Virus record (IMG/VR): IMGVR_UViG_3300017917_003488
Coordinates: 1-43,621 of that record
DNA length: 43,621 nt
Reading direction: 5' to 3' (one strand)
DNA from: a virus
Positions 966 through 35,303 of the stretch are shown here, piece after piece. The position numbers and the translations under genes are program-made. The notes beneath the pieces are model-generated. The model was given only the letters and a program-made list of their open reading frames with translations. It was not told the origin of the DNA and did no database searches. How positions within the stretch are numbered: position 1 is the stretch's first letter; the number at the start of each line of letters is the position of its first letter.

Positions 966-1340
966 ATGCCTACATTCATCGGATTCAGCACCATAGATCA
1001 AAACAAAAAGTTCACAGCCGTGGACTTTGAGCTGATCAAAATCGATCTGCTCAACGCATTCAACATACGTCAGGGAGAGTTGCCCGGACGTCCAGGTTAT
1101 GGAACCGTGATCTGGAACTATTTGTTTGAAAATCAGACTCAAGAAACACAGGCTGCGCTGTTGCAAGAAATCCAGCGGGTATGTGCCGGAGATCCCAGAG
1201 TCTACATCAGTGGCATACAGATATTTCCCCAGGAAAATGGCATATTATTACAACTAGGCGTGGCCGTGGTTCCCAGCACCGCCGCACAACAACTCAGTAT
1301 ATTTTTTGATCAACAACAACGCTCAGCCACGTATGTTTAA
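966..1340 (+). CDS. 25: T4 gp25-like baseplate wedge protein
   Basis: The product is 124 aa, close to T4 gp25 (132 aa) and the GPW/gp25 family, sometimes called lysozyme-like by domain databases. Gp25 sits in the inner baseplate wedge, where the sheath joins the baseplate, and helps start sheath assembly. The N-terminal half carries the family pattern LLNAFNIRQGELPGRPGYGT (residues 28-47). GDPR (75-78) matches the place of the conserved EPR core motif, with Asp for Glu. The next gene is gp6-like, the usual partner in the T4 wedge core. ATG at 966 follows the previous stop by 14 bases; the ribosome site is weak. No other family fits as well. Confidence 0.93.
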   Translation: MPTFIGFSTIDQNKKFTAVDFELIKIDLLNAFNIRQGELPGRPGYGTVIWNYLFENQTQETQAALLQEIQRVCAGDPRVYISGIQIFPQENGILLQLGVAVVPSTAAQQLSIFFDQQQRSATYV

Positions 1341-1385: not shown

Positions 1386-4300
1386 ATGGCTACTACATCA
1401 AGACAAACTGCGATATTCGGGGTAGAAGACTGGAAAAGAATCTACCAGACCTACCAAGAAGCCAACTTTCAAAGCTATGACTTTGAGACCCTGCGCAAGA
1501 GTTTTGTAGACTATCTGCGTATATACTACCCTGAAACATTCAATGACTACATTGAATCATCAGAATTCATTGCCTTGCTGGATGTCATGGCATTCATGGG
1601 TCAGGCTCTGGCCTTCCGCACAGACTTAAACACACGCGAAAACTATCTTGACACAGCTGAACGCAGAGATTCAGTGGTGCGTTTGGCCAATCTGGTCAGT
1701 TATTCCCCAAAACGCAACACACAGGCATCAGGGTACCTCAAGGTTTTTAGTGTCACTACCACAGAAAACGTCACAGACTATAACGGCATTAATCTTGCCA
1801 ACATCACAGTGAACTGGGCAGATCCTACCAATCTTGACTGGCAAGAACAGTTTACTACCATACTCAATGCTGCATTGGTCAACACTCAAAAGTTTGGCAA
1901 TCCTGCCAACCGTCAGACCATACTGGGCGTGGACACACAAGAATACACCATAAATCTGGTGCCCGGATTCCTGCCAGTGATTCCTTACACAGCCACCATA
2001 GACACAGTAAACATGCCATTTGAAGTGTGTAACGCTACTTCGGCTGGTGCAAACTTTGTGTACGAACCTCCCCCATTGCCCAACGGACAGTTCAATGTGT
2101 TGTTCCGCAATGATCAGCAGGGATTCCTCAGCGACAACACGGGCTTTTTCTTCCTGTTCAAACAAGGTGTACTACAAAATCAAGATTTTAACTTGGTCGA
2201 GCGTATAGACAATCGAGCAGTGTCTGTCAATATCGAAGGTATCAACAACACCGATGTGTGGTTGTATCAGTTAGATGACGTGGGCCAAGTTTCATTGTAT
2301 TGGGAAAAAGTGCAGAGCGTGTATGCAGCCGCGGTGGAACAACTGGAGCCCGGTACAAGAAATATTTACAGCGTGAGCAGTCGCACCAATGACCAGATCA
2401 CTTTGAACTTTGGCGATGGAATCTTTTCAACCATACCAGTAGGCACATTCAGAACCTATGTGCGTGCATCCAATGGATTGACCTACATTATCAATCCTGT
2501 TGAAATGCAGAGTGTGAGCGTGCCTATCAGTTATGTAAGCCGCACTGGACAGATCGAAACCATTACCTTTACCTGTGGGATCACAGAACCTGTGACTAAT
2601 GCGCAGGCACGTGAGAGCATTCCAGAAATCAAACAACGAGCTCCGGCACAATACTACACACAAAATCGCATGGTCAATGGCGAGGACTACAACAACTTTC
2701 CTTACACACAATACAACAGCATTCTCAAGAGCACGGCTATAAATCGCGCCAGCATCGGAACCAGTCGTTATCTGGATTTAGTGGACAACACTGGCAAATA
2801 TTCCAGCACTGACATTTTTGCCAGCGACGGCGCTTTGTATGAAAGCGATGACCTTTATTCATTCCAGTTTACCTGGCTCACAGCCAATGACATATCAGAC
2901 GCTGTGATCAATCAGATTACTCCTTTGGCTCTACGTGACGGCCTGCAACAATTTTATTATGCCAACTTCCCCAGACCAAATCTAGCGGTGCTGGACTACA
3001 CTTGGATACAGAGCACCAGTCTTGCCAATGAAACCACAGGTTATTTTGAAAATGACCAAGGCAATCCAGCAGCCATTGGTCCCTTTGCCAGCAACAACGG
3101 TAGATACATCACCGAAGGTAGTCTGGTCAAGTTTGCAGCACCCACAGGTGAATACTTTGATGCCAACAATCGATTGGTAATAGGTGTACCCACAAACCCT
3201 GTCGAGAAAACCACAATCTGGGCTAGTCCGACTGCGGTGTATCAGGCAGGAACATCCGAAGGATTTGGAAATCTTCCTTCGGGCGAAGGTCCAGTGGTGT
3301 TTAATAACTATGTTCCAACTCGTGCCATTCCTCAACAGGTAATCCCAGTATTTGCCACAGACATACCTGTGACCGTGCAACAAAGTATAGTGGCACAGAT
3401 AGCTCTCAACCAAAACTTTGGTCTTGGTTATAACAATCTCACTAATACTTGGTATGTGATCACATCAGGCAATCTAGCAGTCAATGCCGATTTTAGTCTT
3501 ACTAATGCTCAAAACACCACAGGTACCAACAGTGATGCTTCTTGGCTGATACAGGCCACATTTGATGGTGCCACATACACCGTGGTTTCACGCAGTCTTG
3601 AATATTACTTTGGCAGCGTATTGCAGACTCGATTCTTTTTCTACACCAGTGATCCTATCTATGACAGCAGATCCGGCACGGTGATACGTGATTATGTCAA
3701 TGTGCTCAAGGTTAACAGCCAACCAGATTCGCCGGCGCCCATGGGATCAGACAATCTGTTGACCATTATAGATCAGCCAGTGTTGCCCGATGGACTAGTA
3801 GACGACTTCCAGGTCTTGGTGAGTTTTGCCCGTGCCGGAGATCTCACACCAGTGAACCCAGATTTCTTCAACGACATCGTGGCACCGTCAGTGGATTCCA
3901 ATGAAAAACTGGTGTTTTTCCAAAATACCGTGGACTTTGATAACCTACAACGTTTTCTTTTAATCAGATCCGGCCAGGTCAATAGCCAGTATCCTACTCT
4001 GACAGCCATACAAGCAGTACAATCACAGTATGTGGTGGGCCAGGTATTCTACGCTTATCAACAAGAAATATTTTATATTTTGGAACTAGACACTCTGGGT
4101 AATCCTGTATTGGTAGTGACCAACGATTATCAAGCCAAGATAGGTCGTCAGAATCTCTACTTCCAATACAGACACAACAGTCCATTGACCAGCAGGATCG
4201 ATCCTGGATCTACCAACATCATTGATGTGTATATTGTGACCAACTCTTACCACACTGCCTATCTCAACTGGTTACAAGACGTCACTGGAGTGGTAACCGA

Positions 4301-4856
4301 ACCTGCTCCACCAACCATTGATGAGCTGACCACAGCCTATCAGGGTTTGCAAAACTTCAAAATGATATCCGACAACATGATTTTGAACAGTGTAGACTTC
4401 CAGCCATTGTTTGGACAAAAAGCCGATCCGGCACTACGAGCCACTATCAAGGTCATACGTGCTTCCAACAGCACCGCCAGTATCAGTGCCATCAAGAACC
4501 TGGTGATAGCCAACATGAACGCTTATTTTGATCTGGCCAACTGGGATTTTGGTGACACATTCTATTTCAGTGAGATGGCGGCCTACATACATCAAAACAT
4601 CGGAGACGTAGTGAGTTCTGTGGTGTTGGTTCCTTTGGCACAAGGACAGACCTTTGGAGATCTTTATGAAATCAGATCTGCTCCTAATCAGATATTTGTC
4701 AACGGAGCGACAGTGAATGATGTAGAGGTCATTACGGCTTTGACCAGCACCAATCTGCGCAGTCAAAGTCCTACTAATGCGCTCAATGTGTTATTGACAC
4801 AGGCCGGCACTAGCACCATAGGCACATCTGGCACAGCCAGTGGAGGAACTCAGTAG
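1386..4856 (+). CDS. 6: T4 gp6-like baseplate wedge protein (baseplate J family), enlarged
   Basis: Gp6 forms the inner ring of the contractile-tail baseplate together with gp7, gp25 and gp53. The N-terminus has the typical wedge signature NTRENYLDTAERRDSVVRLA (82-101). The middle has VNGEDYNNFPYTQYNS (near 427) followed by the STAINRAS segment. The C-terminal 110 residues, with the long helix around NAYFDLANWDFGDTFYFSEM and the F-x-x-LYEIRSAPNQIFVNG segment, also look like gp6. At 1156 aa it is far longer than T4 gp6 (660 aa). The extra sequence lies mainly between about residues 520 and 1000 and is beta-rich with no recognised domain. ATG at 1386 has GGGA six bases upstream. The stop TAG shares one base with the next start (TAGTG at 4854-4858). 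Confidence 0.92.
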   Translation: MATTSRQTAIFGVEDWKRIYQTYQEANFQSYDFETLRKSFVDYLRIYYPETFNDYIESSEFIALLDVMAFMGQALAFRTDLNTRENYLDTAERRDSVVRLANLVSYSPKRNTQASGYLKVFSVTTTENVTDYNGINLANITVNWADPTNLDWQEQFTTILNAALVNTQKFGNPANRQTILGVDTQEYTINLVPGFLPVIPYTATIDTVNMPFEVCNATSAGANFVYEPPPLPNGQFNVLFRNDQQGFLSDNTGFFFLFKQGVLQNQDFNLVERIDNRAVSVNIEGINNTDVWLYQLDDVGQVSLYWEKVQSVYAAAVEQLEPGTRNIYSVSSRTNDQITLNFGDGIFSTIPVGTFRTYVRASNGLTYIINPVEMQSVSVPISYVSRTGQIETITFTCGITEPVTNAQARESIPEIKQRAPAQYYTQNRMVNGEDYNNFPYTQYNSILKSTAINRASIGTSRYLDLVDNTGKYSSTDIFASDGALYESDDLYSFQFTWLTANDISDAVINQITPLALRDGLQQFYYANFPRPNLAVLDYTWIQSTSLANETTGYFENDQGNPAAIGPFASNNGRYITEGSLVKFAAPTGEYFDANNRLVIGVPTNPVEKTTIWASPTAVYQAGTSEGFGNLPSGEGPVVFNNYVPTRAIPQQVIPVFATDIPVTVQQSIVAQIALNQNFGLGYNNLTNTWYVITSGNLAVNADFSLTNAQNTTGTNSDASWLIQATFDGATYTVVSRSLEYYFGSVLQTRFFFYTSDPIYDSRSGTVIRDYVNVLKVNSQPDSPAPMGSDNLLTIIDQPVLPDGLVDDFQVLVSFARAGDLTPVNPDFFNDIVAPSVDSNEKLVFFQNTVDFDNLQRFLLIRSGQVNSQYPTLTAIQAVQSQYVVGQVFYAYQQEIFYILELDTLGNPVLVVTNDYQAKIGRQNLYFQYRHNSPLTSRIDPGSTNIIDVYIVTNSYHTAYLNWLQDVTGVVTEPAPPTIDELTTAYQGLQNFKMISDNMILNSVDFQPLFGQKADPALRATIKVIRASNSTASISAIKNLVIANMNAYFDLANWDFGDTFYFSEMAAYIHQNIGDVVSSVVLVPLAQGQTFGDLYEIRSAPNQIFVNGATVNDVEVITALTSTNLRSQSPTNALNVLLTQAGTSTIGTSGTASGGTQ
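4842..4847 (+). promoter_or_regulatory. Ribosome binding site GGAGGA that fixes the GTG start of the giant gene
   Basis: GGAGGA lies eight bases before GTG at 4856 and inside the last codons of the gp6-like gene. It is one of the strongest Shine-Dalgarno matches in the window and supports GTG, rather than a later ATG, as the start of the 5059-residue protein. Confidence 0.8.
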
Positions 4857-7800
4857 TGCGACAAGTACGTAGCGTTGAATTTCTACCGGAAATATTCCAG
4901 ACGCCCATCAATGATCAGTTTTTAACGGCTACACTGGATCAGTTGATCCAAAATCCTCGATATCAGCAGACTCAAGGATTCATAGGTCGGCGCATCGGCC
5001 CTGGTGTCAACGCCAATGATCGGTATGTGGTAGAACCTACCAAGTCTCGCACTGACTATCAGCTAGAACCAGGAGTGGTGCAGGTCAATCCTGAAGATAC
5101 CAGCCAGGTTGTGGATGCCATCACTTATCCCGGCATCAACGATGCCATGCAACTGCAAGGAGCCTATGTCAACGATGCCGAAAGACTGTACACCAGCGAT
5201 TACTATACCTGGGATCCTTTTGTTGATCTAGACAAGTTTGTAAACTATGCACAGTACTATTGGTTACCAGGAGGTCCATTGGCTGTGGATGTGTTTTCAA
5301 CCACAGTACCACTCACAGACAACTTCGTAGTAACCAGAGCCAACGGAGTCTATACTTTCTCTGGCGTTGAAGGAGAAAATCCAGAGATAACTCTGGTGCG
5401 CGGCGGAACCTATCAGTTCACTGTGGCGCAAAACGACAAAGAAACTGAAACCTTCCGGGTGACCAACAATGACACCAGCAGCTGGAACATTGATTATTCG
5501 CCTAACCCCACACTGACTCTGGTGCGAGGCAACACCTATGTGTTCAATCTTGAACAGTCTTTCCCTTGGGCATTTTATATCAAAACCGCACTGAGCTTTG
5601 GAACCACGGATGTGTATTCACAGGGTGTGTTCAACAATGGTGCCGGTGCAGGCCTTGTGACTTTCACAGTGCCCCAAGATGCTCCGGATACGCTGTATTA
5701 TTGCAATGACGTTGAGTTTAATCTTCGCGGCCAGATCAATGTGATCGATGCTCAGAGCGGAACCGGTCCGGGTTTCTGGATACAGGCTGACCCTGGAGTG
5801 AGTGGCAAGATGATTGCTACTCCTAACATCAGCAGCCGTGACGTGCTGGGTGTGACCAATAATGGTGAAGATCTAGGCACAGTGACCTTTAATGTTCCGT
5901 TGGCCACAGCACAAGATTTTTACTACAACATGGAGAAGTTTGAAACTCCAGTAAACTTAATTTGCAATCTACAGTTTGATCAGATCAATGGTATTTCTGT
6001 GTCTGAGTTTTTGTCTCAATTCCCAGATGGTATAGATGGTATCACTAATATCAATGGGCGTACACTGATTTTTACAGAACCCAATCCAGATCCAGAACAG
6101 GGCGGCTGGTTGATCAACAGTCCGTTTGATCCTTTGGCACAAAACCCCGACAATGACGGCTTGCCTGGATCCTTTGATAGTTTGCCTTATAGTCAGACCA
6201 CCCCTATTACCGATGTTGACGTACAACGCAGCGTGTGGCTTGTTACCTATCAGGGTGACCCGGCCACTGGACAGTTTATCACTCTTTCTACCGTGGCTCC
6301 TGTGCCCGAACTCAATAAGTTCACTGTCAACTTTGGCACAACTTATTCCAGCACCACATGGTTCAAAAACAGCGATGGATATTTTGAAGAATTTCCTTTG
6401 CTGACCGCAGGCCTCAATCGTTTGTGGTATCAAGATGGAACCGATCCAGAGATCTTTGGAAGATTCAATCTCATTCCTGGATCTGACAGTGAAATTTTAG
6501 ATATAAATCAGATCATAGGCGCACAAAACTACGTCAGTCCCAACGGCGTGATATTCAGCAATGGCATGAAAGTGGTGTTCCGAGGCGAAGTGACTCCGTC
6601 CAGTTATGCCAATAATGAATACTATGTTGAAGGAGTGGGCACAGCCATACAGTTATTGCCTGTAGGCAACTATGTCACTCCTGAGACCTACACAGAAAAC
6701 GCCAGCATACCTTATGATAGCACTCCTTATGATGTGGGGAACTATGATGGTGCGTTGAATCAACCATTGACTCCGGATTATCTCACGGTAAATCGTGCCA
6801 GCCCAGATCTTAATGCCTGGGCCAGAAGCAACAGATGGTGCCACATTGATGTGATCACTGCGTCGGCTGAGTACAACAACACATCACCGATCCTGAACAA
6901 TAATTTCCGTGCTCGCCGTCCTATCCTGGAGTTCCGTGCTGGAACCAAACTGTTCAACTCAGGCACCGCGGCCTTGGCGCCAGTGACCGTGATGGACCTC
7001 ACGCAAACAGATGCTTTGAGCAATGTCAACGGTGCCTTGGGCTACAGTGTAGATGGGTATACACTGATCAATGGTAGTACCATTATTTTTGCGGCAGATA
7101 TAGATCCCGAGGTGCGCAAAAATGTCTACCAAGTGCGATTCGTCATTACAGATACCAACGCAGAAGATTCTACCATTCCAGATGTGCCGGTGATCATTCT
7201 GACTCCTATTGCTACAGCAGTGGTTGACAATGTTACAGTGATTCTAGATGGATTGACACAACAAGGCAAGACTTATTACTTTGATGGAGTCAACTGGATA
7301 TTGGCCCAAGAGAAAATCAGCGTGAATCAGCCTCCGAAATTCGATCTCTACGATGCCAACGGCATCAGTTTTGGTGACCAAGACAGATACCCTAGCTCCA
7401 ACTTCACAGGCAGTCCGTTGTTTAGTTACGCCATTGGTGATGCCGAGCCAGATCTGGTGCTAGGATTTCCGTTGACCTATCTCAGTCTGACCAATCTCGG
7501 AGACATTGTTTTTGACAACAACTTGTACAAAGACACGTTTAACTATACTTTGAACAGCCAAGGTTACACCCAGTCGGTCAGCACAGGATTTGTGCGCCAA
7601 TATAGTAATAGAACCGATTATGTCAAAGAGATTGGATGGCAGACAGCAGCCACTCGCAGTTTGATAAGACAACAGTTCCAGTTTACCTATGATGGTTCGC
7701 CATTGTTGTTGGATGTAGCGGTCAATGACAATGATACTGTTCCAGCTATACAGATCTATGCCGATGGACAGTTTCAGGCCTCTAGCAACTACCAATACAC

Positions 7801-10800
7801 TGTTGATACCAATACAACCACTATTAATCTGTTGACTACCTATGTGCCCGGAACTCTTATTGAGGTCGCGGCATTAAGTGATCAAATCAGCCGTCAAGGA
7901 TTTTACGAAGTACCTATCAATCTAGAAAACAATCCTTTAAACGGCAACAGCAGTCAGTTCACTCTAGGCACTATTCGCAATCACTATTCGGGTCTGGCCG
8001 CCAATCTTATTAATCTAGAAGGGCCTCCTATTGGTGCCAACAACACCAGAGACCTTGGTAACATCATACCTTACGGTCTGCAGATACTGCAACAGAGTTC
8101 GCCATTGACGCTGACCGGATATTTCATGCGCGACCCAGACTATGATATCTTTGCTTCGTTGTCCTATAACAGCGCAGAATATATCAAGTTCAAGTCTCAG
8201 TTGTTGAATGCCGTGACTACCTTCAGTATCGAGCAGTATGGAAACTGGACTGTGGCACAGTTGTTGGATGCCAGTGTGCAACAGATAACTGCCGGTAAGA
8301 CAAATATCAATCCATTCTATTGGAGTGATATGTTGCCCACCGGTACCACATTTATTTCTAACTCTTATACTATAAACCCTATTAGCACCAACTCATTCAA
8401 CACAGTGCAGACCTATGATTTTACACAATCAAACTATTTGGGCCTATGTGTTTATCTGAACAATGTATTATTGACTCGAGGATTAGATTATGTGGTCAGT
8501 GAGGACAGCCCAACACTGATCATACTGAGAACTCTGGCAGTGAGCGATATAGTTACCATCAATGAATACTCTGATACTGCTGGCAACTTTGTGCCCAACA
8601 CTCCGACTAAACTGGGTCTGTATCCTAAATATGAACCCAAGATTTTTTATGATACCAGTTATGTAAATCCTACCTTGGTCATACAAGGACACGACGGATC
8701 GATCACCACAGCCTTTGGTGACATACGTGATCAGGTGTTGTTGGAGTTTGAACAACGCATCTATAATAACCTCAAGAATGATGGCAATCCGCCACCTTTG
8801 GTAGCAGAAGATGTAATCCCGGGCTACTTCCGCACTACAGATTACACACAGGCCGAGATCAATCAGATTCTAGGCGAAGATTTTCTGTCCTGGGTAGGAG
8901 CCAACAAGTTAGATTATACTGCACAGACATATATTTCATCCAACGAATTCACCTACAACTACAGCCAGGCCAGCAATAGACTTGACCGAGCAACTTTGTT
9001 AGGAGCTTGGCGTGGCATATATCGTTGGTTCTATGATACTGTATCTCCAGATACCACTCCATGGGAAATGTTGGGATTCAGCGAACAACCAGTCTGGTGG
9101 GCAGATCGTTATGGCCCTATGCCTTATACTAGCGACAACTTGGTGTTGTGGGGAGATCTCGAAGAAGGACTGGTAGCCGATCCAGCAGGATTCTATGTGA
9201 TACCCAAGTATCGTCGCCCAGGGTTGACATCGGTGATTCCGGTAGACAACCAAGGTCAGTTGTTACCACCTTTCTACAGCGTGATGGGAGCATACAATCC
9301 ACAGGGATTTGTCAAGAGTTGGCAAGTAGGTGATGGCGGACCGGTGGAAGCCAGTTGGTGGGCAAGTTCAAGTTATCCATTTGCAATCATGCGTTTGTTA
9401 ATCTTGACACGCCCTGCAGAATTTTTCAGTTTGTTTGCAGATCGTGATCTTTACAGATATAATGTGGAGTTTGATCAATATCTCTACAATGGTCGTTATA
9501 GACTGCGCCCACAAGACGTGCAGGTTTATGGCAATGGAGTCAGTAAAGCCAGTTATATCAACTGGATAGTTGATTATAATCAACAGTCCGGAGTCAATAG
9601 TACCGCTGCGTTGACTATAGATCTGGCCAATCTTGATGTGCGTCTGTGCTATCGTATGGCATCATTTGCGGCCCAACAAAATTTGGTCACTTACTTAGAA
9701 AAGAGCGCACCCAACAGTGAAAACAGCAGCCTAGAGATTCCCCCAGAAAGCTACAATCTGTTGTTGTATAAAAATCAACCTTCCAGCAGCATATCTTACA
9801 GTGCGGTGATTGTTGAAGTAGTAGACGGCGGATACAGTGTGTACGGATACAACTCAGCAGATCCTTATTTTTCTGTGCTGGCCAGCCGTGTCAATGGTGA
9901 ACAACAGACCATAGAAGTAGGCAATGTCACGGTCACTGTGCCCAAATTCTATAACAGTGGCAAGATAGTGCAGGTACCCTATGGTTACACATTCACCAAC
10001 CTAGCAGGAGTAGTAGACTTTTTGTTGAGCTATGGACAGTACCTGGCATCACAAGGTCTGAGTTTTACTGCCAGAGAAAACAACTACACACTGGACTGGT
10101 TCCAAATGGCCCAGGAGTTTTTGTATTTTGCCAACCAAGGTTGGGCATCTGGAACCATTATCAACTTGAATCCGTCGGCCACCCAGGCTGTGTCATTCAA
10201 GCCAGGTGTAGTGGTAGATTCCATAGTTTCTTACACACCAGAGAATCTCATACTGGATCAGAATCGCAAGGCGTTTGATGCCAAGAATCTAGTGATCCGT
10301 AGATCAGGCAACACATTCACGGTGAATCCAGCACCAGGTGGCAGTCAGACCATAAGCTATCTCAAGCTCAAATTCACAGACTATGAAAACATGTTGGTGT
10401 TCGCCAATCGCACCATATTCAATGATTTGATTTTCAACCCCATCACTGGAGAACGTCAAAGCAGACTCAAACTAGTGGCAGCTACCAGCACCGAATGGAA
10501 TGGTGTATTGAATGCACCTGGATTCATATTGAATCAGCCCAATATCAAAGAATGGCAGGCCAATACCAAATACACCAAGGGCGACATCGTTCTATACAAA
10601 AACAACTATTGGCAGGCGTCTACTATTGTGGCACCTAAGACCAAGTTTGAATACAGTGACTGGCTCAAGAGCAACTATGATCGTATCAGCCAAGGCCTGT
10701 TACAAAACTTGGCCACCAAGTCTGATCAGTTGGCCACCAGCTACGACACACAAACAGCTAATCTAAACAGTGACAATGATTTGTTGGCATTTGGTCTGAT

Positions 10801-13800
10801 TGGATTTAGACCTCGCCAGTACATGGTGGACTTGAATCTCAGTGACACCAGCCAAGTCAATCTCTATCAACAGTTTATCAAGACCAAGGGAACCACACGA
10901 GCTACAGATTTGTTTACCCAGGTGGGCTTTGGGCCATTGACAGCACAGTATCGCATCTATGAAAACTGGGGCATATTGGCCGGTACCTATGGTGCCAATG
11001 CTAATCGCAGCTGGTTTGAAGTAGTGTTAGATGAAGCACTGCTGACTGGAAATCCTAGCACTTTACAAATCATACAGCCGGGTGATGCCAGTGTGGCCAA
11101 TCAAACTGTGTTGTTGGAAAATCTCTGGGCAGAAAGCTTCAAGATCCCCAATACCGACATTTTGCCCACTACCTACACAATCAATCCTGATGTAGCTTTG
11201 CCATCAGCAGGGTATGTCAACATCGACGATGTAGATATCACAGTATTCAGCCTCAATGATCCTACCAGCATAGCAAACAACATCAACATTGTTGGCAATG
11301 GCACAAAGATTTGGGTAGCCAAAGACAACAGCTATGACTGGAATGTGTATCAGTGTGCCCAGGTACCAGGGCGATTGACACAACTCACTGACAATCTTAA
11401 TGGCACTAGTCGTGCTCAGTTCAGTTCTGCGGTCAACTTGGCCGTGGGCGATTTGATCATCATACGCTATTTCAGCGACACAGTTGATGGAGTATATCGA
11501 GTACTGAGCGCACCTACCGCAAATACCGTAGTCATACAGTATGAGTTTACCAATAGCAATCAGACTTCTATCACTGGCACTGGACTGGTGTTTTATCTAC
11601 AAACCATGCGAGTAGCACAGGCCAGCGACGTGGCCTCTCTTCCATACGCTTCGCAACTCACACCTGGCGCTACAGCCTGGGTCGACAATGACGGATTTGG
11701 CCACTGGCAGGTACTGGAAAAAACCAACCCATTTGCAACCATTGACACAGTGTCAGCCACTTTGCCCGAAGCCAACTCATTGTTTGGCTCTAGCCTGGCT
11801 CAGAGCAGCAATCACTACGCACTGCTAGTGGGTGCACCAGCTGCCAGCGGCGGCTCAGGTGCTGTGTACACTTTCCGTCTAGGCAATGTAAATGACTACA
11901 TCGAAAATGACGAACTGATCCTGAATGCCACTGGTACCGCCGGCTACGGTAACAGCGTGGATTTTGGAGATAGAACTTGGGCGGTGGCCGGTGCCAGTGC
12001 CAGCAACTCTGGTGCAGGTTATGTGGCCATGCTTTATCTAGTGCCCGGAACCAACGATTATATTACTTCTCAGTTGTTGCTGGAGCCCACACAGGATTTC
12101 AGCTCTATTGGATTTGGAACATCAGTAAAAATGTCGCCCAACGAACGTTGGTGCTATGTCAGTGCGCCTGGGGCCAACCATGTTTATGCCTATGCTCGTG
12201 TGGATGTACCGCCACAGAGTGTGGCCTACACCACTACCGGAACTTCGGCAACATTTACCTATTCCGATGACATCATCATAGATTCTGCATATCCAAATCA
12301 ACTCATAGTGTTGATAGGAAACTTAGAGGCTCGCTATGGCATAGATTATATTATCAATGCCAACCTTGTACAGTTTTTGTACATGCCTACACCGGGCGAG
12401 CAAATAGTTCTCAGTCGTCGCACTGCTGTACAGTTAGATACCGCTACCTACTACAATGTAGTACAGGATTCAACCACTGGATCTGGTTACAGTGCTGCAT
12501 TCACAGTAACCAACACCAGGGGAACATATTCGGTGTCATTGACTCAGCCTGGGTTAGACTACAACGTGGCCGATCAACTCACTATCAGTTATACCCAGAT
12601 TGACCCTACAGGGTCTGTGGCCAACGATATTACCATCACAGTGACCGAAGTCACTGATGGTGGTATCACTGCATTTACATTTACTGGATCCGGAGTCAGC
12701 AACACTTCGGTATTTTCATTGATTGATAGTTTGTATACAGTAGATGGATACGATTCATTCACCGTCACTGTGGATGGCGTATTACAACGTCCCTATCTTG
12801 ATTATACCTACAATACCGGTACAGGCAATATAACATTCTTGACTGTGCCCGGTGCAGGCACCACCATAGTAGTAGATTCAGCTACAGTGGGTGCCTATTG
12901 GCAGTATGTTGACACTATCACTGCCAATGAACTAGATGCCAATGCTGGGTTAGGTACCAGCATTTCAACCGATGTGTTAGGTCGACAAATATTGGCCGGC
13001 GCACCTCAAGACAGTGCTGTGGACGCCGAAGGTGACATCATAGAAAATGCAGGTGCGGTCTATGCGTTTGATCGTGGTACAGTGAAATACATCATTACTG
13101 ATCCTGCACAGTTTACCTATCCAATACCGGGCACAGCTATCGATCCTATAGCTGTGATTCTAAACAATCAATATCTGACCAACACAGATCAATACATCAA
13201 TGGTCAGTTCACAGTTAGTGGCAGCAACATCATATTGTCCAGTGACATTGATTTGACTGTAGGCGATACATTGGAGATTGAAACCAATCAGTTCCAACTA
13301 ATACAACGATTCACTACCAACACAGTGATAGATGAAAGCAAGTTTGGCCAGAGTGTGGCCATCTGTGATAACAGTTGTAGCGTGTATGCTGGCGCACCGT
13401 TTGATTCTTACGCCACTGGTGTGCCACAGGCTGGTTTATTGCAACGTCAAGTCAACCAATCAAGGGTGTACGGAATCATTACCAGCACTGTGGCCAACCC
13501 AGTGTTGACACCCGGAGACACATTGAGAATTAACAACATTGAGGTTGCAGTACCAGATGCTCCTCAAAACACCGTGGCCGGGTTGGTAGCTGCTGTAAAC
13601 AATGCTGGTATACCCAATGTGATAGCTTCAACTACTACTGACGTAACTCTTGTTGGCGATGGTTCTACCAAGATATTTGACATTGGAAGCATTTATTCTT
13701 CTGCCAGTTCTTATACCACAGTGGTCTATGTAGATTCAGTGTTGCAAACCGCTGGAGTTGACTATACCTACAACAACACTACTCAACAACTGTTGTTTGT

Positions 13801-16800
13801 TTCTGCACCAGTATTGGACGCAGAAATTACGGTGATAGGCGGTAGAATGACCGTCAATGTTATAAATTCTCAAGCCGCGGTATTGTTTAACAAACTTACT
13901 GTGTTGCCAGGCCTAACCGCAGATGACAGTTCTATTGGCTCAGCATTCTATGATCTAGGATTTGTTACCTATGCCTACACACAGACCATAGTCAGCCCTA
14001 ATCCCACAGATTTTGCCCAGTTTGGCGCCTCGGTCAGTGTAAACTCCGGATCCACTAACATTGTGGTAGGCGCACCCTATGGCGATGTGTATCAACCCAC
14101 TACTTTTGATGCCGGCGAAACCTATTTTGATGATCGTAGTACCACAGTGTTTAACTCGATTGACAATTCAGGTGTAGTTTATACATTTGACTATTTGCCC
14201 AGCGCCAGCGATAGTGTCACAGATCCGGGACAGTTTGTGTTCGGACAACAAATATATGGCAACGGATTACAGACCAACGATAACTTTGGTATCGCAGTAG
14301 ATTATCGTAACAGTCGATTGCTGGCCGGTGCACCAGGTAGTGATCTGGGAGACAGCAGTGTCAACTACGGCAGCGTGTATGTGTTGGACAACGCAGAAGA
14401 TGCCGCGGTATGGCAAGTGAGATATCAACAACTGCCTATGGTAGATATAAATCTATTGAACAGTGTTTATTCTTATGATAAACTGTTGAACAGCACACAA
14501 ACTTACTTTGATTACATTGATCCATTACAAGGCAAAATCTTGGGCGTGGCTCGCAGAAACATTGACTACATCGGGGCAGTAGATCCGGCCAGTTACAATG
14601 TTGGTACCATACACAACATAGGAACCAGTTGGGGTGCAACTCATGTAGGAGAGATTTGGTGGGATACCAACTCCGTGAGATTCCTAGATGCCAACCAAGA
14701 TGATCTGATCTATGCCAGCCGTAGATGGGGTCAAGTGTTTCCTGGTAGCTCTATTGATTGCTATCAATGGACAGCCAGTGAGGTACCACCAACATCTTAT
14801 GTTGGTCCCGGAACACCTTTCAGCAACACCAGCTACACTGTACGATCATCGGTCAATGATCAAGGACTATTGGTCACTACATATTTCTATTGGGTGCGTG
14901 GTATCAACACCGTGGCCACACAGGCTGGAAAAACTTTGAGCCCTAACGCTGTAGCCAGTTACATACTGAACCCAATCAGCAGCGGTCTACCGTTTATTGC
15001 TGCTCTAGCACCCAACGCTTTGGCTGTTTACAATGCCAGCAGTCTTTTGTCAGGCGATACTACAGTGTTGCATGTGGGATATGATCGCCAGGCACAGGGC
15101 GGATCCTCTGACATACACACAGAATACGAGTTTATTGCCGAAGGCAAACCCGATGCATTCCTAAACGCCAACTTATATCGCAAACTGCTAGACAGTTTCT
15201 GTGGAGTGACCACTACTGGTGCTGCGGTGCCAGATCCGCTGTTGAGTCCAGGCATGCAGTATGGTGTGCAATACCGCCCCAGACAAAGCATGTTTGTCAA
15301 CAGATTCTCGGCTTTGCAAAACTATCTAAGCCGTGCGAACTCAATATTGGCACAGTACCCTATCAGCGAGATTCGCACGTTCAACCTGTTAAACAGCTCT
15401 GAACCAATCCCAACATCAAACTCAGGAGCCTGGGATTTTGAAGTTCCTAACCTTGAGGTGTTGTCTTATCAGAATTTATTGACTGTTCCTCTGGGCTACA
15501 AATATTTGGTGCTCAACGATTCCAGCCAAAACGGCCGCTGGACTATATATCAAGTTGGACTCAGTGGTCTTCCGGGTCAACGAGAACTGAGCTTGATACA
15601 GGTACAATCCTATGACACTCCTCTGTATTGGAACTACATCGACTGGTATCGTCCAGGATACAACAACACCATCCAGCCTGTGGCCACAGTGGCCAATGTG
15701 GCCGGCCTGCAACAGATAAGTTTGACTGATGCTCCGGTGGGTAGCAGCGTCAAAGTTACAGCCAACGGTCAAGGCAAGTTTGAAATATATCTTAGAACTG
15801 ACCTTGGATGGGATCGTGTAGGTCTCCAAGACGGCACTATTGAGTTCAGTGAAGTGCTATGGAACTATGTGGCTGGCGGTTTTGGTTTTGACGCTCAAGT
15901 GTTTGATAGCACCTATTTTGATCAAGAACCCAATGCTGAAACTCGCAACATAATCCGTGCTATCAATGAAGAACTATTCGTAGACGATCTGTTGATTGAA
16001 CGCAATCGATGCCTGATGTTGGTGTTCCAGTATATCTATACCGAGTTTACCAATCCATATTGGTTAATCAAGACCAGCTATATCACTGTTGATCACGTGA
16101 TCCGTGGATTGTTGCCCTATGAGTTATATCAGCCCGACAATCAAACCTTTGTGTTGGATTACTTGAATGAAGTCAAGCCCTATCACGTACAGAATCTGGT
16201 GTTCAATCTGATCTATGACGGCATTGACACCTATCCAGGTGCATTGAGTGACTTTGATTTGCCAGCCTATTGGAATACCAGCCTGGCTCAACCGCAGTTT
16301 ACAAGCCCTATATTGACGCCTTACACCTACAGCAACAGCGTGAACCAGTCATTCCTAAGTGATGCATCACCCGACAGTCAGGTTTGGTTGACTCGTCCGT
16401 GGAGTGAATGGTTCAACAACTACACACTGAGTGTGCAAGGTGTCACGATCAATGACACTACTACCACTTACAGCGATCCTCCAATCATTACCATTGGCAT
16501 GGAATGGACTGCCAACACTACCTATGCTCTAGGCGAGCAGATTTTTTACGGCACTAATCTTTATACAGTGACCACAGCCGGTACCACGGACATAGCTCCT
16601 CCAAGATTCACAATAGGAAGCCTGGCCAATGGCACCGCGGTATTAACCTACGCTGGAACCAGAGCTCAGGCCACTGCGGTGCTTCGTGCTAATCGAACCA
16701 TATCTCAAGTCAATGTAACTGAAAGCGGATCGGGTTACCTGACTACACCATTGATCTCAGTCGCTGATCCCAATGATAGTACCATGAACTATGGTTATGC

Positions 16801-19800
16801 CCTGGTTCCTGTCATGGGCAACAACTTGGTAAGAAGTATCAAAACCACGATCAAATATGACCGTTATGAATACAACAGTGACATAGTAGAATGGAGTGCG
16901 TTGGTACCAGAATATCCAGCTGGTACACGAGTAAGATATCAAAATCAAGTTTGGGAAGCTGATGCCACTGTGACCAATGAACCGATCACAACAACGGCTA
17001 CTGCGCCCATCGGATCGTTTACTATCACAGTGGCCTCAACAACAGGGTTAGTACAAGGAATGTTGGTCACAGCTGCACAGCAGTTACCTCCCAATACTAC
17101 CATTGGAGAGATCAACGGTAATACTATTTTGTTGACCAAGGCCACACTGATTGAAATAAACAACACTGCCTTGAACTTCTACCAGAGTTTTGATCTTGAA
17201 CAATGGACCGCAGTGGAGGCCAGTTCTCTTAGTGGAGTAGATCGTACTATGGGATTCTATGTGCCCACAGTCAACATGCCTGGATTGAGCTTGCCGTTGT
17301 TGATTGATGGAGTAGACTATCCGGGAGTACAGGTCACTGCGCCTTTGTTTAATCAAAACACAGGATTTGACGTTGGTAACTATGATATCAACCCGTTTGA
17401 CAACTTCAGCTATGATGCAGAAGGTCGTCCAACTTATGACCCGGGTATATTAGATGCCAAATATTCCAGCTCCTACCTAGATCTTTATCTAGGTACTCGG
17501 CCCACAGACATCAATGTGGATGGTGGTGCCTACATTGATACCTATTCAAGCCATGCTCCGGAAGAACTGATTCCTGGCAGCGAGTTTGATACCTTGGATC
17601 TCCGAGTATACACACGTCCGGGTAGCGATTGGTTGGAACAAGGCCATGGATTCCCATCCAATGTGCGTTTGTTTGAACTAGACACAACCGAGCCTGTGTT
17701 GAGTTTCGCTGGACTTGAACCCTACACAGCTTTGGTATTTGTGAGCAATCAAACACAAGGTATAGATCTGCATCTAGGTTCAGATTACACTGTGAACTAT
17801 GTGGATCAAACCGTGACCATGATTCCAGGTGGTAATGTTCTCAATGGCGACGTGATCGTGATCACAGCCTATGAACCCGGTGGTGGCAATCAGCTTTACA
17901 AAAATCTTTACAATGGTGCCGATATCGGCAACACTGTGACAGTGCCAGTGTCCTATTACCAAATTGATGGCGTCACTCCTGAAATACTGACTATCGCGGT
18001 CTTTGTCAATGGTGTAGTGACCACCGATTACACCTATGCTCCTCTGGGCAACAGAGAAACCATAATAACATTTGGTACTACCTATACCAGCACCGACAGC
18101 GTGGCCTTGTTTGTGTTGGCACCTACAGTGATCAACATCGACGAACCCCCAATAGATTACAGCTGGAGTATTCCACAAACACAGGCCATCATCAGTGATG
18201 GCACCAGTTTATCATTCCAGCTAGATAACAGTCTCAGCGGATGCAATCCAGATTGTTTGATAGTCACTGTCAATGGTGTGCGTGCCAGAACACCTGCTGG
18301 TATACGCCACATAGCAGATGGCAGTACAGGTTATGATTTACCCGATAGACTGGGATTTAGTCAGAGCTTGATACAAGATAACGAAGTTCGAGTTTATGTA
18401 GATGATGTGCCACAGATTTTGGGTGTGGACTTCACTGTTGAAGCCTGGGCTGGTCCGGTAAGAGAAGTTCTATTTGCCACTGAGCCTCCTGTGGGATCAA
18501 CTATTTTGATCTACGTGACCACTGGAACACAGGCCTATGTCAATGGCGATCAACTGATTTTCAACACCGGCACTGGTATCGTGCCAATAGCTGGTGATAT
18601 CATTGATGTGACTACCTGGAATGATACCAGACAACAAGGTGTGTTGAGCCAGTGTTTTGTGGGCCCGATAACCACAGGTACTTTGATAAACGAACCTTAC
18701 GATTCCACAGACTTTGATGTGGGTACCATAACCGGAGATCCGGGTAGTTTTGACTATACTGCCGGTACCGCGGTCACTTCAAACAGCCTGGATCTAGGAG
18801 TAGAAATCACTGATCCAGACCGTCTGTGGGTATCAAAGAACGGCACACGTCTGTTCAACAATCAAGGCTTTACTGTCAGTGGGACCGAGGTCGTGCTGAC
18901 TTCCGGTATCATGAGTGCGATTGATGTGGTCATGATCACACAGTTTACCAATGCAGTGGTTCCAGAAGCCATGGCATTCCGTATCTTCCAAGACATGCGC
19001 GGAGTACAGGCCGTGTATCGTATTACTGAATCCACTACCACTGTAACAACCTCTGCAGTCGGTATAACCGATGACATCATTTATGTTGAAAATGCCGCGG
19101 CCTTGTCCGAACCAGACTTTGACAATAATATCTGGGGAGTAGTAACCATTAATGCTGAACGCATTATGTATCGTGAACGCAATCTTGTTGACAATACTAT
19201 CAGCAGTTTGTTGCGCGGTACTGCAGGTACTGCCATAGCAGAGCACGAAGCAAACAGTTTGGTCTACAACATGGGCCGTGACAATCTATTGCCAGAGGTC
19301 TACCAAAACTATATCACCAGCAACTCCTACATGGGCGATGATACCACTTTGGAATTTGTTACCGACTTTTCAGTAGACAATCGTCCTATCGTGTACATTG
19401 GTGGTAGCGTACAGGTTTATCTAGATGGTCTAGAGTTGCCAACTTCTACTTACACGATCACACAGGTCGAGCCGGTAGTAGTGGTGCTTGATTTTATACC
19501 CACAGCGGGTAGTATTGTTACTGTGCAAGTCACAGCTCTAGATAGTTCACAGGACAGCGAAATATTCACCAGCACCGGGTCATCTGCTAGATTCGTGACA
19601 ACCATAGACATTGGACTAGAAGAGCAGGATGATTCTACATTTGTTTTGGATGATTTCAACCCTGTGACCATAACATTTGACACTGCACCTCCTTTGGATC
19701 ACATTGTTTACATACGCAATCAACGCGGCGCCGAAGATGAGTTTGATTTCTCTGTGGCCAATGGTATACAGACCACATTCACTACCACTATAGATCTTTC

Positions 19801-20035
19801 ATTGCCAGTAGAAGTGTACGTGGGCGGAATCGTACAGCCCGAAGATACCTATCAGGTTATAAGTTTGGATCCAGTTATAGCTATACTTGATGTTGCTCCG
19901 CCCAGTGGTGTTGAAGTCACTGTGTTAGTGGCCAACGGAGTATCTTGGTATCAACCCGGAATAGACTCTGCCAGCAACGGTGAACCATTACAGATCACCG
20001 AAACCCAGGCAGCAAGGTTCTTGCGTGGGGAATAA
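4856..20035 (+). CDS. Giant 5059-residue multidomain virion structural protein with FG-GAP propeller repeats
   Basis: One uninterrupted frame of 15.2 kb, directly behind gp6, where T4 has gp7. I infer a baseplate, tail-fibre or host-contact component but cannot align it to gp7. Order of visible parts: N-terminal 1-150 with VEFLPEIFQTPINDQFL and WDPFVDLDKFVNYAQYYWLP; degenerate cupredoxin-like domain about 215-297; Trp-rich block about 1381-1440 (GAWRGIYRWFYDT, then QPVWWADRYGPMPYTSDN); CBM5/12-like module about 1896-1935 and weaker copies near 3881 and 4012; seven FG-GAP repeats about 2308-3190; a conserved-looking block 3419-3520 (YRPRQSMFVNRFSALQNYL); then many beta repeats of the type VyVDGvlQ...DYTy...I.F...P..G. 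to about 5050. No transmembrane segment or protease motif was seen. GTG start with GGAGGA. No frameshift or stop interrupts it. Confidence 0.9.
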   Translation: MRQVRSVEFLPEIFQTPINDQFLTATLDQLIQNPRYQQTQGFIGRRIGPGVNANDRYVVEPTKSRTDYQLEPGVVQVNPEDTSQVVDAITYPGINDAMQLQGAYVNDAERLYTSDYYTWDPFVDLDKFVNYAQYYWLPGGPLAVDVFSTTVPLTDNFVVTRANGVYTFSGVEGENPEITLVRGGTYQFTVAQNDKETETFRVTNNDTSSWNIDYSPNPTLTLVRGNTYVFNLEQSFPWAFYIKTALSFGTTDVYSQGVFNNGAGAGLVTFTVPQDAPDTLYYCNDVEFNLRGQINVIDAQSGTGPGFWIQADPGVSGKMIATPNISSRDVLGVTNNGEDLGTVTFNVPLATAQDFYYNMEKFETPVNLICNLQFDQINGISVSEFLSQFPDGIDGITNINGRTLIFTEPNPDPEQGGWLINSPFDPLAQNPDNDGLPGSFDSLPYSQTTPITDVDVQRSVWLVTYQGDPATGQFITLSTVAPVPELNKFTVNFGTTYSSTTWFKNSDGYFEEFPLLTAGLNRLWYQDGTDPEIFGRFNLIPGSDSEILDINQIIGAQNYVSPNGVIFSNGMKVVFRGEVTPSSYANNEYYVEGVGTAIQLLPVGNYVTPETYTENASIPYDSTPYDVGNYDGALNQPLTPDYLTVNRASPDLNAWARSNRWCHIDVITASAEYNNTSPILNNNFRARRPILEFRAGTKLFNSGTAALAPVTVMDLTQTDALSNVNGALGYSVDGYTLINGSTIIFAADIDPEVRKNVYQVRFVITDTNAEDSTIPDVPVIILTPIATAVVDNVTVILDGLTQQGKTYYFDGVNWILAQEKISVNQPPKFDLYDANGISFGDQDRYPSSNFTGSPLFSYAIGDAEPDLVLGFPLTYLSLTNLGDIVFDNNLYKDTFNYTLNSQGYTQSVSTGFVRQYSNRTDYVKEIGWQTAATRSLIRQQFQFTYDGSPLLLDVAVNDNDTVPAIQIYADGQFQASSNYQYTVDTNTTTINLLTTYVPGTLIEVAALSDQISRQGFYEVPINLENNPLNGNSSQFTLGTIRNHYSGLAANLINLEGPPIGANNTRDLGNIIPYGLQILQQSSPLTLTGYFMRDPDYDIFASLSYNSAEYIKFKSQLLNAVTTFSIEQYGNWTVAQLLDASVQQITAGKTNINPFYWSDMLPTGTTFISNSYTINPISTNSFNTVQTYDFTQSNYLGLCVYLNNVLLTRGLDYVVSEDSPTLIILRTLAVSDIVTINEYSDTAGNFVPNTPTKLGLYPKYEPKIFYDTSYVNPTLVIQGHDGSITTAFGDIRDQVLLEFEQRIYNNLKNDGNPPPLVAEDVIPGYFRTTDYTQAEINQILGEDFLSWVGANKLDYTAQTYISSNEFTYNYSQASNRLDRATLLGAWRGIYRWFYDTVSPDTTPWEMLGFSEQPVWWADRYGPMPYTSDNLVLWGDLEEGLVADPAGFYVIPKYRRPGLTSVIPVDNQGQLLPPFYSVMGAYNPQGFVKSWQVGDGGPVEASWWASSSYPFAIMRLLILTRPAEFFSLFADRDLYRYNVEFDQYLYNGRYRLRPQDVQVYGNGVSKASYINWIVDYNQQSGVNSTAALTIDLANLDVRLCYRMASFAAQQNLVTYLEKSAPNSENSSLEIPPESYNLLLYKNQPSSSISYSAVIVEVVDGGYSVYGYNSADPYFSVLASRVNGEQQTIEVGNVTVTVPKFYNSGKIVQVPYGYTFTNLAGVVDFLLSYGQYLASQGLSFTARENNYTLDWFQMAQEFLYFANQGWASGTIINLNPSATQAVSFKPGVVVDSIVSYTPENLILDQNRKAFDAKNLVIRRSGNTFTVNPAPGGSQTISYLKLKFTDYENMLVFANRTIFNDLIFNPITGERQSRLKLVAATSTEWNGVLNAPGFILNQPNIKEWQANTKYTKGDIVLYKNNYWQASTIVAPKTKFEYSDWLKSNYDRISQGLLQNLATKSDQLATSYDTQTANLNSDNDLLAFGLIGFRPRQYMVDLNLSDTSQVNLYQQFIKTKGTTRATDLFTQVGFGPLTAQYRIYENWGILAGTYGANANRSWFEVVLDEALLTGNPSTLQIIQPGDASVANQTVLLENLWAESFKIPNTDILPTTYTINPDVALPSAGYVNIDDVDITVFSLNDPTSIANNINIVGNGTKIWVAKDNSYDWNVYQCAQVPGRLTQLTDNLNGTSRAQFSSAVNLAVGDLIIIRYFSDTVDGVYRVLSAPTANTVVIQYEFTNSNQTSITGTGLVFYLQTMRVAQASDVASLPYASQLTPGATAWVDNDGFGHWQVLEKTNPFATIDTVSATLPEANSLFGSSLAQSSNHYALLVGAPAASGGSGAVYTFRLGNVNDYIENDELILNATGTAGYGNSVDFGDRTWAVAGASASNSGAGYVAMLYLVPGTNDYITSQLLLEPTQDFSSIGFGTSVKMSPNERWCYVSAPGANHVYAYARVDVPPQSVAYTTTGTSATFTYSDDIIIDSAYPNQLIVLIGNLEARYGIDYIINANLVQFLYMPTPGEQIVLSRRTAVQLDTATYYNVVQDSTTGSGYSAAFTVTNTRGTYSVSLTQPGLDYNVADQLTISYTQIDPTGSVANDITITVTEVTDGGITAFTFTGSGVSNTSVFSLIDSLYTVDGYDSFTVTVDGVLQRPYLDYTYNTGTGNITFLTVPGAGTTIVVDSATVGAYWQYVDTITANELDANAGLGTSISTDVLGRQILAGAPQDSAVDAEGDIIENAGAVYAFDRGTVKYIITDPAQFTYPIPGTAIDPIAVILNNQYLTNTDQYINGQFTVSGSNIILSSDIDLTVGDTLEIETNQFQLIQRFTTNTVIDESKFGQSVAICDNSCSVYAGAPFDSYATGVPQAGLLQRQVNQSRVYGIITSTVANPVLTPGDTLRINNIEVAVPDAPQNTVAGLVAAVNNAGIPNVIASTTTDVTLVGDGSTKIFDIGSIYSSASSYTTVVYVDSVLQTAGVDYTYNNTTQQLLFVSAPVLDAEITVIGGRMTVNVINSQAAVLFNKLTVLPGLTADDSSIGSAFYDLGFVTYAYTQTIVSPNPTDFAQFGASVSVNSGSTNIVVGAPYGDVYQPTTFDAGETYFDDRSTTVFNSIDNSGVVYTFDYLPSASDSVTDPGQFVFGQQIYGNGLQTNDNFGIAVDYRNSRLLAGAPGSDLGDSSVNYGSVYVLDNAEDAAVWQVRYQQLPMVDINLLNSVYSYDKLLNSTQTYFDYIDPLQGKILGVARRNIDYIGAVDPASYNVGTIHNIGTSWGATHVGEIWWDTNSVRFLDANQDDLIYASRRWGQVFPGSSIDCYQWTASEVPPTSYVGPGTPFSNTSYTVRSSVNDQGLLVTTYFYWVRGINTVATQAGKTLSPNAVASYILNPISSGLPFIAALAPNALAVYNASSLLSGDTTVLHVGYDRQAQGGSSDIHTEYEFIAEGKPDAFLNANLYRKLLDSFCGVTTTGAAVPDPLLSPGMQYGVQYRPRQSMFVNRFSALQNYLSRANSILAQYPISEIRTFNLLNSSEPIPTSNSGAWDFEVPNLEVLSYQNLLTVPLGYKYLVLNDSSQNGRWTIYQVGLSGLPGQRELSLIQVQSYDTPLYWNYIDWYRPGYNNTIQPVATVANVAGLQQISLTDAPVGSSVKVTANGQGKFEIYLRTDLGWDRVGLQDGTIEFSEVLWNYVAGGFGFDAQVFDSTYFDQEPNAETRNIIRAINEELFVDDLLIERNRCLMLVFQYIYTEFTNPYWLIKTSYITVDHVIRGLLPYELYQPDNQTFVLDYLNEVKPYHVQNLVFNLIYDGIDTYPGALSDFDLPAYWNTSLAQPQFTSPILTPYTYSNSVNQSFLSDASPDSQVWLTRPWSEWFNNYTLSVQGVTINDTTTTYSDPPIITIGMEWTANTTYALGEQIFYGTNLYTVTTAGTTDIAPPRFTIGSLANGTAVLTYAGTRAQATAVLRANRTISQVNVTESGSGYLTTPLISVADPNDSTMNYGYALVPVMGNNLVRSIKTTIKYDRYEYNSDIVEWSALVPEYPAGTRVRYQNQVWEADATVTNEPITTTATAPIGSFTITVASTTGLVQGMLVTAAQQLPPNTTIGEINGNTILLTKATLIEINNTALNFYQSFDLEQWTAVEASSLSGVDRTMGFYVPTVNMPGLSLPLLIDGVDYPGVQVTAPLFNQNTGFDVGNYDINPFDNFSYDAEGRPTYDPGILDAKYSSSYLDLYLGTRPTDINVDGGAYIDTYSSHAPEELIPGSEFDTLDLRVYTRPGSDWLEQGHGFPSNVRLFELDTTEPVLSFAGLEPYTALVFVSNQTQGIDLHLGSDYTVNYVDQTVTMIPGGNVLNGDVIVITAYEPGGGNQLYKNLYNGADIGNTVTVPVSYYQIDGVTPEILTIAVFVNGVVTTDYTYAPLGNRETIITFGTTYTSTDSVALFVLAPTVINIDEPPIDYSWSIPQTQAIISDGTSLSFQLDNSLSGCNPDCLIVTVNGVRARTPAGIRHIADGSTGYDLPDRLGFSQSLIQDNEVRVYVDDVPQILGVDFTVEAWAGPVREVLFATEPPVGSTILIYVTTGTQAYVNGDQLIFNTGTGIVPIAGDIIDVTTWNDTRQQGVLSQCFVGPITTGTLINEPYDSTDFDVGTITGDPGSFDYTAGTAVTSNSLDLGVEITDPDRLWVSKNGTRLFNNQGFTVSGTEVVLTSGIMSAIDVVMITQFTNAVVPEAMAFRIFQDMRGVQAVYRITESTTTVTTSAVGITDDIIYVENAAALSEPDFDNNIWGVVTINAERIMYRERNLVDNTISSLLRGTAGTAIAEHEANSLVYNMGRDNLLPEVYQNYITSNSYMGDDTTLEFVTDFSVDNRPIVYIGGSVQVYLDGLELPTSTYTITQVEPVVVVLDFIPTAGSIVTVQVTALDSSQDSEIFTSTGSSARFVTTIDIGLEEQDDSTFVLDDFNPVTITFDTAPPLDHIVYIRNQRGAEDEFDFSVANGIQTTFTTTIDLSLPVEVYVGGIVQPEDTYQVISLDPVIAILDVAPPSGVEVTVLVANGVSWYQPGIDSASNGEPLQITETQAARFLRGE
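5500..5745 (+). other. Degenerate cupredoxin-like domain within the giant protein
   Basis: Residues about 215-297 have NPTLTLVRGNTYVFNLEQ, then FPWAFYIKT, VTFTVPQDAPDTLYYC and GQINVIDA. This is the strand order and spacing of a plastocyanin-like sandwich as found in many environmental phage and bacterial proteins. The Cys after LYY is kept, but the histidines expected near HPFYIKT and after the Cys are absent, so copper binding is unlikely. An incomplete copy (PEITLVRGGTYQFTV) precedes it near residue 172. It is probably a structural sandwich. Confidence 0.55.
11780..14400 (+). repeat. Seven FG-GAP (integrin-alpha-like) repeats within the giant protein
   Basis: The repeats begin near 11780, 11944, 12113, 12951, 13342, 14021 and 14285. 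Each has a LG/FG-x-S-V/I opening, a hydrophobic strand ending in VGAP or AGAP (AGAS in the second, VSAP in the third), and a closing G-x-VY-x-F/L strand. Examples are FGASVSVNSGSTNIVVGAP and FGQSVAICDNSCSVYAGAP. Seven copies match a seven-bladed propeller. About 250 residues between copies 3 and 4 and about 180 between copies 5 and 6 carry DGVLQ...DYTY-type beta repeats, as if insert domains project from the propeller. Confidence 0.75.
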
Positions 20036-35205: not shown

Positions 35206-35303
35206 AATGGATTCGAAATATCATAGATAAAATACGTTTGGAAATACGTTATCGTAAAAAACTCAAAGAACTTCGCAAACGAGATCCTTTTATCTATAAA
35301 TGA
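35202..35303 (+). CDS. 33-aa very basic micro-protein
   Basis: ATG at 35202 overlaps the previous stop (ATGA) and has AGGA (35191-35194) seven bases upstream. Its own stop overlaps the next start (ATGA, 35300-35303). The peptide begins MKWIRNIIDKIRLEIRYRKK and ends KELRKRDPFIYK. It is a predicted amphipathic helix with 13 Lys/Arg and no Cys. The exact fit between two ATGA junctions and the ribosome site argue that it is real. I recall similar short peptides ending RDPFIYK in environmental phages. A helper or nucleic-acid/membrane-binding peptide is possible; a radical SAM substrate peptide is conceivable but unsupported. Confidence 0.75.
   Translation: MKWIRNIIDKIRLEIRYRKKLKELRKRDPFIYK

Follow-up and report, generated by a model that had tools for sequence, protein, structure and literature searches.

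The stretch of DNA analyzed here (hereafter, the window) comprises the 43,621 nucleotides of a viral sequence, IMG/VR record IMGVR_UViG_3300017917_003488, positions 1 to 43,621. Near its start lie genes for a gp25-like baseplate wedge subunit (966..1340; matches to phrog_261, phrog_975 and phrog_43, E-values down to 1.7e-9), a gp6-like baseplate wedge subunit (1386..4856; phrog_10646, E=1e-277) and a giant virion protein of 5,059 amino acids (4856..20035), the GTG start of the latter open reading frame (ORF) sharing bases with the stop codon of its gp6-like neighbor; these genes and all domains of the giant protein described below are on the + strand. By sequence and prediction, amino acids 2270-3195 of the giant protein (11663..14440) fold into a seven-bladed FG-GAP_2 propeller, very probably a closed ring, that has no calcium sites and carries insertions in three of its loops, as indicated by Pfam, AlphaFold2 and Foldseek.

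A sequence-only reading of the same DNA, made without database searches, had placed seven consecutive FG-GAP repeats at 11780-14400, and these are borne out by the motif positions, by a profile derived from the repeats themselves and by Pfam. The repeat pattern, FG...(V)GAP...G.VY.(F/Y), occurs in seven copies within residues 2310-3170: the first residue of the FG motif (F, Y or L) is found at positions 2310, 2364, 2420, 2699, 2830 and 3056 in blades 1-6, and blade 7 has its FG at 3144-3145, corresponding to nucleotides 11783, 11945, 12113, 12950, 13343, 14021 and ~14285. The proposed span thus holds to within ~30 bases for the repeats, whereas the whole propeller extends over approximately 11663-14440. 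The profile built from the window's own repeats detects exactly seven in the 5,059 residues and none outside the propeller stretch; because such a profile is partly circular, Pfam was used as well. The propeller matches FG-GAP_2 (PF14312) with E=7.1e-14 and 52.2 bits, well above the family cut-off of 23, which bears out the expected hit in an FG-GAP family search, and 33 of the 34 aligned sequences, the window included, match PF14312 at E<=1e-3. To assess chance similarity, each blade was scored with a profile from which that blade and the window had been left out, and the score was compared with the maximum of 200 shuffles. Blades 1, 3, 5 and 6 scored 13.4, 15.9, 9.7 and 21.5 bits, respectively, against a shuffle maximum of at most 8.0; blade 4 was marginal (5.0 bits vs 5.9), and blades 2 and 7 were not recovered in this test. 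Blade 7 is the best single PF14312 repeat (27.8 bits), and in blade 2 the G of FG and the A of GA are conserved in 35/35 sequences each. All seven repeats are kept in the relatives.

The AlphaFold2 model of residues 2270-3195 (926 amino acids, 34 sequences) has a mean predicted local distance difference test score (pLDDT) of 88.7 and a predicted template modeling score (pTM) of 0.86, and the strands assigned by DSSP sort into seven blades of four strands each. Blade 1 (strands 1-4, 11792..11917) retains the conserved FG, and blade 2 (strands 1-4, 11954..12079), missed by the leave-one-out profile, is backed by both conservation and the model. Blades 3, 4 and 5, detected by the leave-one-out profile (marginally for blade 4) and by the model, are each interrupted before the last strand, with strands 1-3 at 12125..12205, 12959..13093 and 13352..13456 and strand 4 at 12893-12919, 13268-13312 and 13970-13990, respectively. 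Blade 6 (strands 1-4, 14030..14254), identified from the model, has a strand 2-3 loop of 32 amino acids, a length that is the same in all 34 sequences, and blade 7 (strands 1-4, 14297..14428) is defined by PF14312 together with the model. In Foldseek searches against the PDB, the model retrieved mostly integrin-alpha heads, with a probability of 1.0 and a template modeling (TM) score of ~0.5 normalized by target; among viral models, the matches were FG-GAP proteins with TM-scores of 0.6-0.77 by target, including compact proteins at 0.72-0.77 and a 411-residue Harvfovirus FG-GAP protein (0.74) that superposes over almost the whole propeller query. PDB searches with the sequences of the propeller and its flanks gave no usable relative. 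The PF14312 match, the seven-by-four strand arrangement and the integrin heads together uphold the integrin-alpha-type seven-bladed fold that had been proposed from the repeats.

The window's repeats differ from other PF14312 members in being broken by three large insertions and embedded in a virion protein of ~5,000 residues. Another example is the gp320 'hemagglutinin protein' of Agrobacterium phage Atu_ph07 (A0A2L0UZX4), a jumbo phage related to the window; it likewise has an FG-GAP_2 propeller (TM-score 0.62 by target) but is a free-standing protein of 393 residues, separate from the giant protein. The free-standing FG-GAP_2 gene of Atu_ph07 (243018-244199; positions 3019-4200 of L136) lies beside genes annotated as tail sheath.

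With the integrin alpha propeller (PF01839; PDB 4wk2 and 3nid), the phage domain shares the seven FG-GAP blades but differs in its low identity (~10%), in the insertions between strands 3 and 4 and in the calcium sites. In integrins and related calcium-binding blades, Dx[DN]xDG loops are located at the blade tips, with three sites in integrin aVb3 (PMC3123361). A relaxed pattern, Dx[DN]x[DNS]G, is found in only 2 of 245 blades and in none of the window, and the strand 1-2 turns span five residues in blades 1 and 3-6, four in blade 2 and two in blade 7, lengths that are invariant across the 34 sequences. The PF01839 score of the window, 13.1 bits, is below the cut-off of 22.1. Integrin-type calcium binding was accordingly rejected on all three grounds (sub-threshold PF01839, no Dx[DN]xDG loops, turns of 2-5 residues), and the calcium-binding Asp loops anticipated for each blade are not there.

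The long insertions all fall between strands 3 and 4 of three neighboring blades (3, 4 and 5); from standard propeller topology, these loops should share one face of the propeller. The insertion in blade 3 (229 residues, 2451-2679; 12206..12892) contains two beta modules, that in blade 4 has 58 residues (2747-2804; 13094..13267) and that in blade 5 has 171 residues (2868-3038; 13457..13969), and across the 34 sequences their lengths range over 138-312, 56-66 and 98-213 residues, respectively. In three relatives (L115, L116 and L120), blades 3 and 4 are only ~50 residues apart, so that the insertion in blade 3 is dispensable. The blade 5 insertion, delineated by alignment, Flagellin_IN and a module hidden Markov model (HMM), is in the relatives a domain weakly similar to Flagellin_IN (E=1e-3 in L128), and is nested: the window's copy is interrupted by a DGVLQ/DYTY-type module that two relatives (L042 and L043) lack. 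Of the eight DGVLQ/DYTY matches that the module HMM finds in the giant protein, three are in the propeller region and the others outside it. Thus, of the two DGVLQ/DYTY-bearing insertions originally described, the modules stand, albeit not restricted to the propeller, and the number of long insertions rises to three.

The giant protein belongs to the phrog_10938 giant virion structural proteins, which include those of Rak2-like phages: phrog_10938 matches both its flanks (E=7e-221 and 4e-59), and it follows the gp25-like and gp6-like genes. It is homologous to proteins of PA5oct, Atu_ph07, 121Q, SCTP-2 and CBB, and in PA5oct, Atu_ph07, 121Q and CBB the homolog directly follows a gp6-like gene; the window's gp6-like gene itself has tblastn matches among jumbo-phage proteins annotated as baseplate wedge, and the order gp25-gp6-giant protein is that of the jumbo relatives. 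Two members of the family were detected in virions: CBB_236 was detected in CBB particles by mass spectrometry with 21 unique peptides (PMC5259590), and PA5oct gp355 is annotated with a note of electrospray ionization tandem mass spectrometry (ESI-MS/MS). Gene position and homology thereby support the placement in a tail or baseplate protein made by the sequence-only reading; the term 'baseplate' is used here on the basis of gene order and the annotation of relatives. In T4, gene 7 comes next after gene 6, and gp7 is likewise a large wedge protein in that position, but no tested part of the giant protein has a significant profile match to it. No homology with T4 gp7 was detected by hhalign, the best local match being a 'KGT' motif at residues ~2006-2024, picked by eye (E=0.17); given the negative profile comparisons, for gp7 we claim position alone. 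The region before the propeller (residues 1740-2290) was modeled with a pLDDT of 67.6, and a PDB search with this model gave no match below E=1e-3. Outside the propeller, two segments of the giant protein (10550-10615 and ~16502-16594) resemble the carbohydrate-binding module CBM_5_12 at E-values of ~2e-4 and 4e-4, below the cut-off; the homolog of Pseudomonas phage PAC2 bears the annotation chitin-binding type-3.

Comparison with relatives shows that the predicted propeller sits in a slot of variable content, with a conserved core domain on either side. The upstream core (residues 1400-2076; 9053..11083) aligns in all relatives compared; the last shared segment before the slot (residues 2112-2180; 11189..11395), with the motif LPSAGYVN...WVAK..DWNVY, has HMM matches in SCTP-2, PA5oct, Atu_ph07 and 121Q; and shared sequence resumes near residue 3184, the downstream core (residues 3190-3800; 14423..16255) aligning in all the named relatives. 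The relatives were taken as the best-scoring 80 of each scan and are not a random sample. Among the 70 chosen by a flanking region with the whole slot present, none has fewer than three detectable blades and 56 show the full seven; among 59 more distant ones, 30 have no detectable blades. The slot ranges from ~220 residues (121Q and CBB) to ~2,440, and its contents differ among the relatives without the propeller. No FG-GAP repeats were detected in the slots of the PA5oct, Atu_ph07, 121Q, SCTP-2 and CBB giant proteins, and a tblastn search with the propeller as query gave no match in the named phages; in these phrog_10938 proteins, which share the homologous flanks, the position following the gp6-like gene (in annotated cases) and, for the CBB and PA5oct members, detection in virions, the slot holds ~220-1,540 residues of other sequence. 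That of the Atu_ph07 giant protein (L046; residues ~1657-3200) accounts for ~1,540 residues rich in glycine-containing beta motifs unrelated to FG-GAP. The slots of L166 and L171 measure ~2,430 residues. Visual inspection of the SCTP-2 slot suggested a lectin-like jelly roll, for which there is no Pfam match.

In a quick, unrooted tree based on the upstream core of 129 relatives, propeller carriers separate from the others at well-supported branches (SH-aLRT, the Shimodaira-Hasegawa-like approximate likelihood ratio test, 99). Only two changes of presence or absence are needed, one of which concerns a single row with one detectable blade, and the five named phages included in it all fall on the propeller-less side. 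From this distribution we infer one ancient gain or loss of the propeller, which an unrooted tree does not distinguish, followed by vertical inheritance across one large clade. Scanning bacterial genomes with the flanking region of the giant protein gave no relative and hence no prophage or host hint.

The blades diverge faster than the flanking cores, with median identities to the window of 39-47% vs 56-58%; the C-terminal part of the giant protein, at 39-41%, is about equal to the blades. The top-face loops have a mean entropy of 1.71-1.84 bits vs 1.25 in the strands and are not hypervariable. Divergence and loop entropy alike fit a part that is probably exposed but not rapidly exchanged. 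Receptor-binding proteins are typically, although not obligatorily, swapped or hypervariable between close relatives, a trait at odds with the one-branch distribution and moderate divergence seen here. A swappable host-range cassette was therefore rejected as the main reading because the presence of the propeller follows the tree, with divergence only moderately raised.

The function that we tentatively favor, while rating it somewhat short of probable, is that of a rigid platform at the baseplate rim whose insertion-bearing face docks fiber or rim proteins. The propeller would most likely project from the baseplate wedge, with one copy per wedge and hence, by analogy with T4-type baseplates, about six per virion. 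Given propeller topology, the three beta-rich insertions of blades 3-5 would project from one face, which would dock fiber or rim proteins of the virion, and the cell surface may be contacted by the other face. Docking is preferred because fiber-attachment-like modules would project from one side, with host binding a close second. In particular, Phage_T7_tail (PF03906), the N-terminal, fiber-attachment domain of the T7 tail fiber gp17, matches the propeller region in 4 of the 34 aligned sequences (best E=2e-8), which places one of the insertions of these relatives in its family, and the DGVLQ/DYTY module type recurs along the giant protein; the one-sided distribution on the tree is as expected of a fixed architectural part. 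Several points weigh against this interpretation. The window's own giant protein has no PF03906 match at E<1, the tested segments reach an hhalign probability below 1% with T4 gp7 alone and with a six-phage gp7 alignment, and the model of the region preceding the propeller is weak where it mattered (pLDDT <50 for residues ~1945-2051). The closed ring is read from strand order, the pTM of 0.86 and the TM-scores, which strongly suggest it, and the integrin superpositions have a root-mean-square deviation (rmsd) of ~20 A, probably because the insertions disturb them. The faster divergence of the blades could equally reflect host contact, and we know of no solved baseplate with such a domain.

Host recognition, the role suggested in the sequence-only reading, in which the top face would bind a conserved bacterial surface glycan or protein and give reversible adsorption, is a serious possibility, although we consider it the less likely one. 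The fold is common to integrin-alpha heads, which, like adhesins, bind ligands through FG-GAP propellers; contact at the rim of the baseplate is plausible, the blades outpace the cores in divergence, and the viral fold matches include proteins annotated 'receptor-like cell wall protein' and 'hemagglutinin'. However, these annotations are by similarity only, there are no calcium sites, the top-face loops are not hypervariable, and the propeller is present across a whole clade, with a single inferred gain or loss, rather than being swapped. Vertical inheritance is nevertheless compatible with an adhesin whose target is conserved. It appears unlikely that the propeller merely spaces or stiffens the giant protein or aids its assembly, with no specific partner: relatives do manage without it, with slots down to ~220 residues (121Q and CBB), and spacer domains are frequent in long repetitive beta proteins, but the seven blades, the tight turns and the 32-residue strand 2-3 loop in blade 6 have been kept over deep divergence, which suggests a specific surface, and the variable domains all appear to lie on one face. 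We regard as very improbable an open beta array with a superficial motif likeness; the failure of the leave-one-out profiles on blades 2 and 7 and the high rmsd of the integrin superpositions would be in line with it, but are outweighed by the model scores over 926 residues, the match of the 411-residue viral protein over nearly the whole query and the conservation of all seven repeats. A combination of functions, in which a ring of about six baseplate propellers would be a clade-defining organ that both docks fibers and directly binds a conserved host surface structure independently of calcium, is a speculative and rather unlikely extension of the docking platform; if true, it would represent a kind of baseplate adhesin for which cultured phages provide no described example, carried by a large clade of uncultured jumbo phages.

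Both the propeller fold and the carrier protein are of known kinds, and FG-GAP proteins in viruses were already known. In the literature searched, no paper joins FG-GAP repeats with a phage baseplate, and there appears to be no description of the present setting, in which uncultured jumbo phages conserve a propeller within a giant tail protein. The analysis indicates that an integrin-alpha-type propeller is a constant component of the tail machinery throughout a large group of uncultured phages. The sharing of the giant protein with propeller-less cultured jumbo phages provides a clean with/without comparison for the contribution of the domain to a contractile tail.

Farther along the window, at 20854-22134, is a gene for a virion or fiber-like protein with a weak match, just under the cut-off, to Peptidase_G2, an autoproteolytic cleavage domain. 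The region 26579-34178 contains six overlapping ORFs in a row, five of which match phage radical S-adenosylmethionine (SAM) profiles of PHROGs, those at 30339, 31670 and 32871 also having SPASM domains; it is unusual for radical SAM enzymes to be packed so densely after tail genes. Directly after this row lies a NodU-like carbamoyltransferase gene (35300-36769; PF02543 and PF16861; phrog_1601, E=7e-89).

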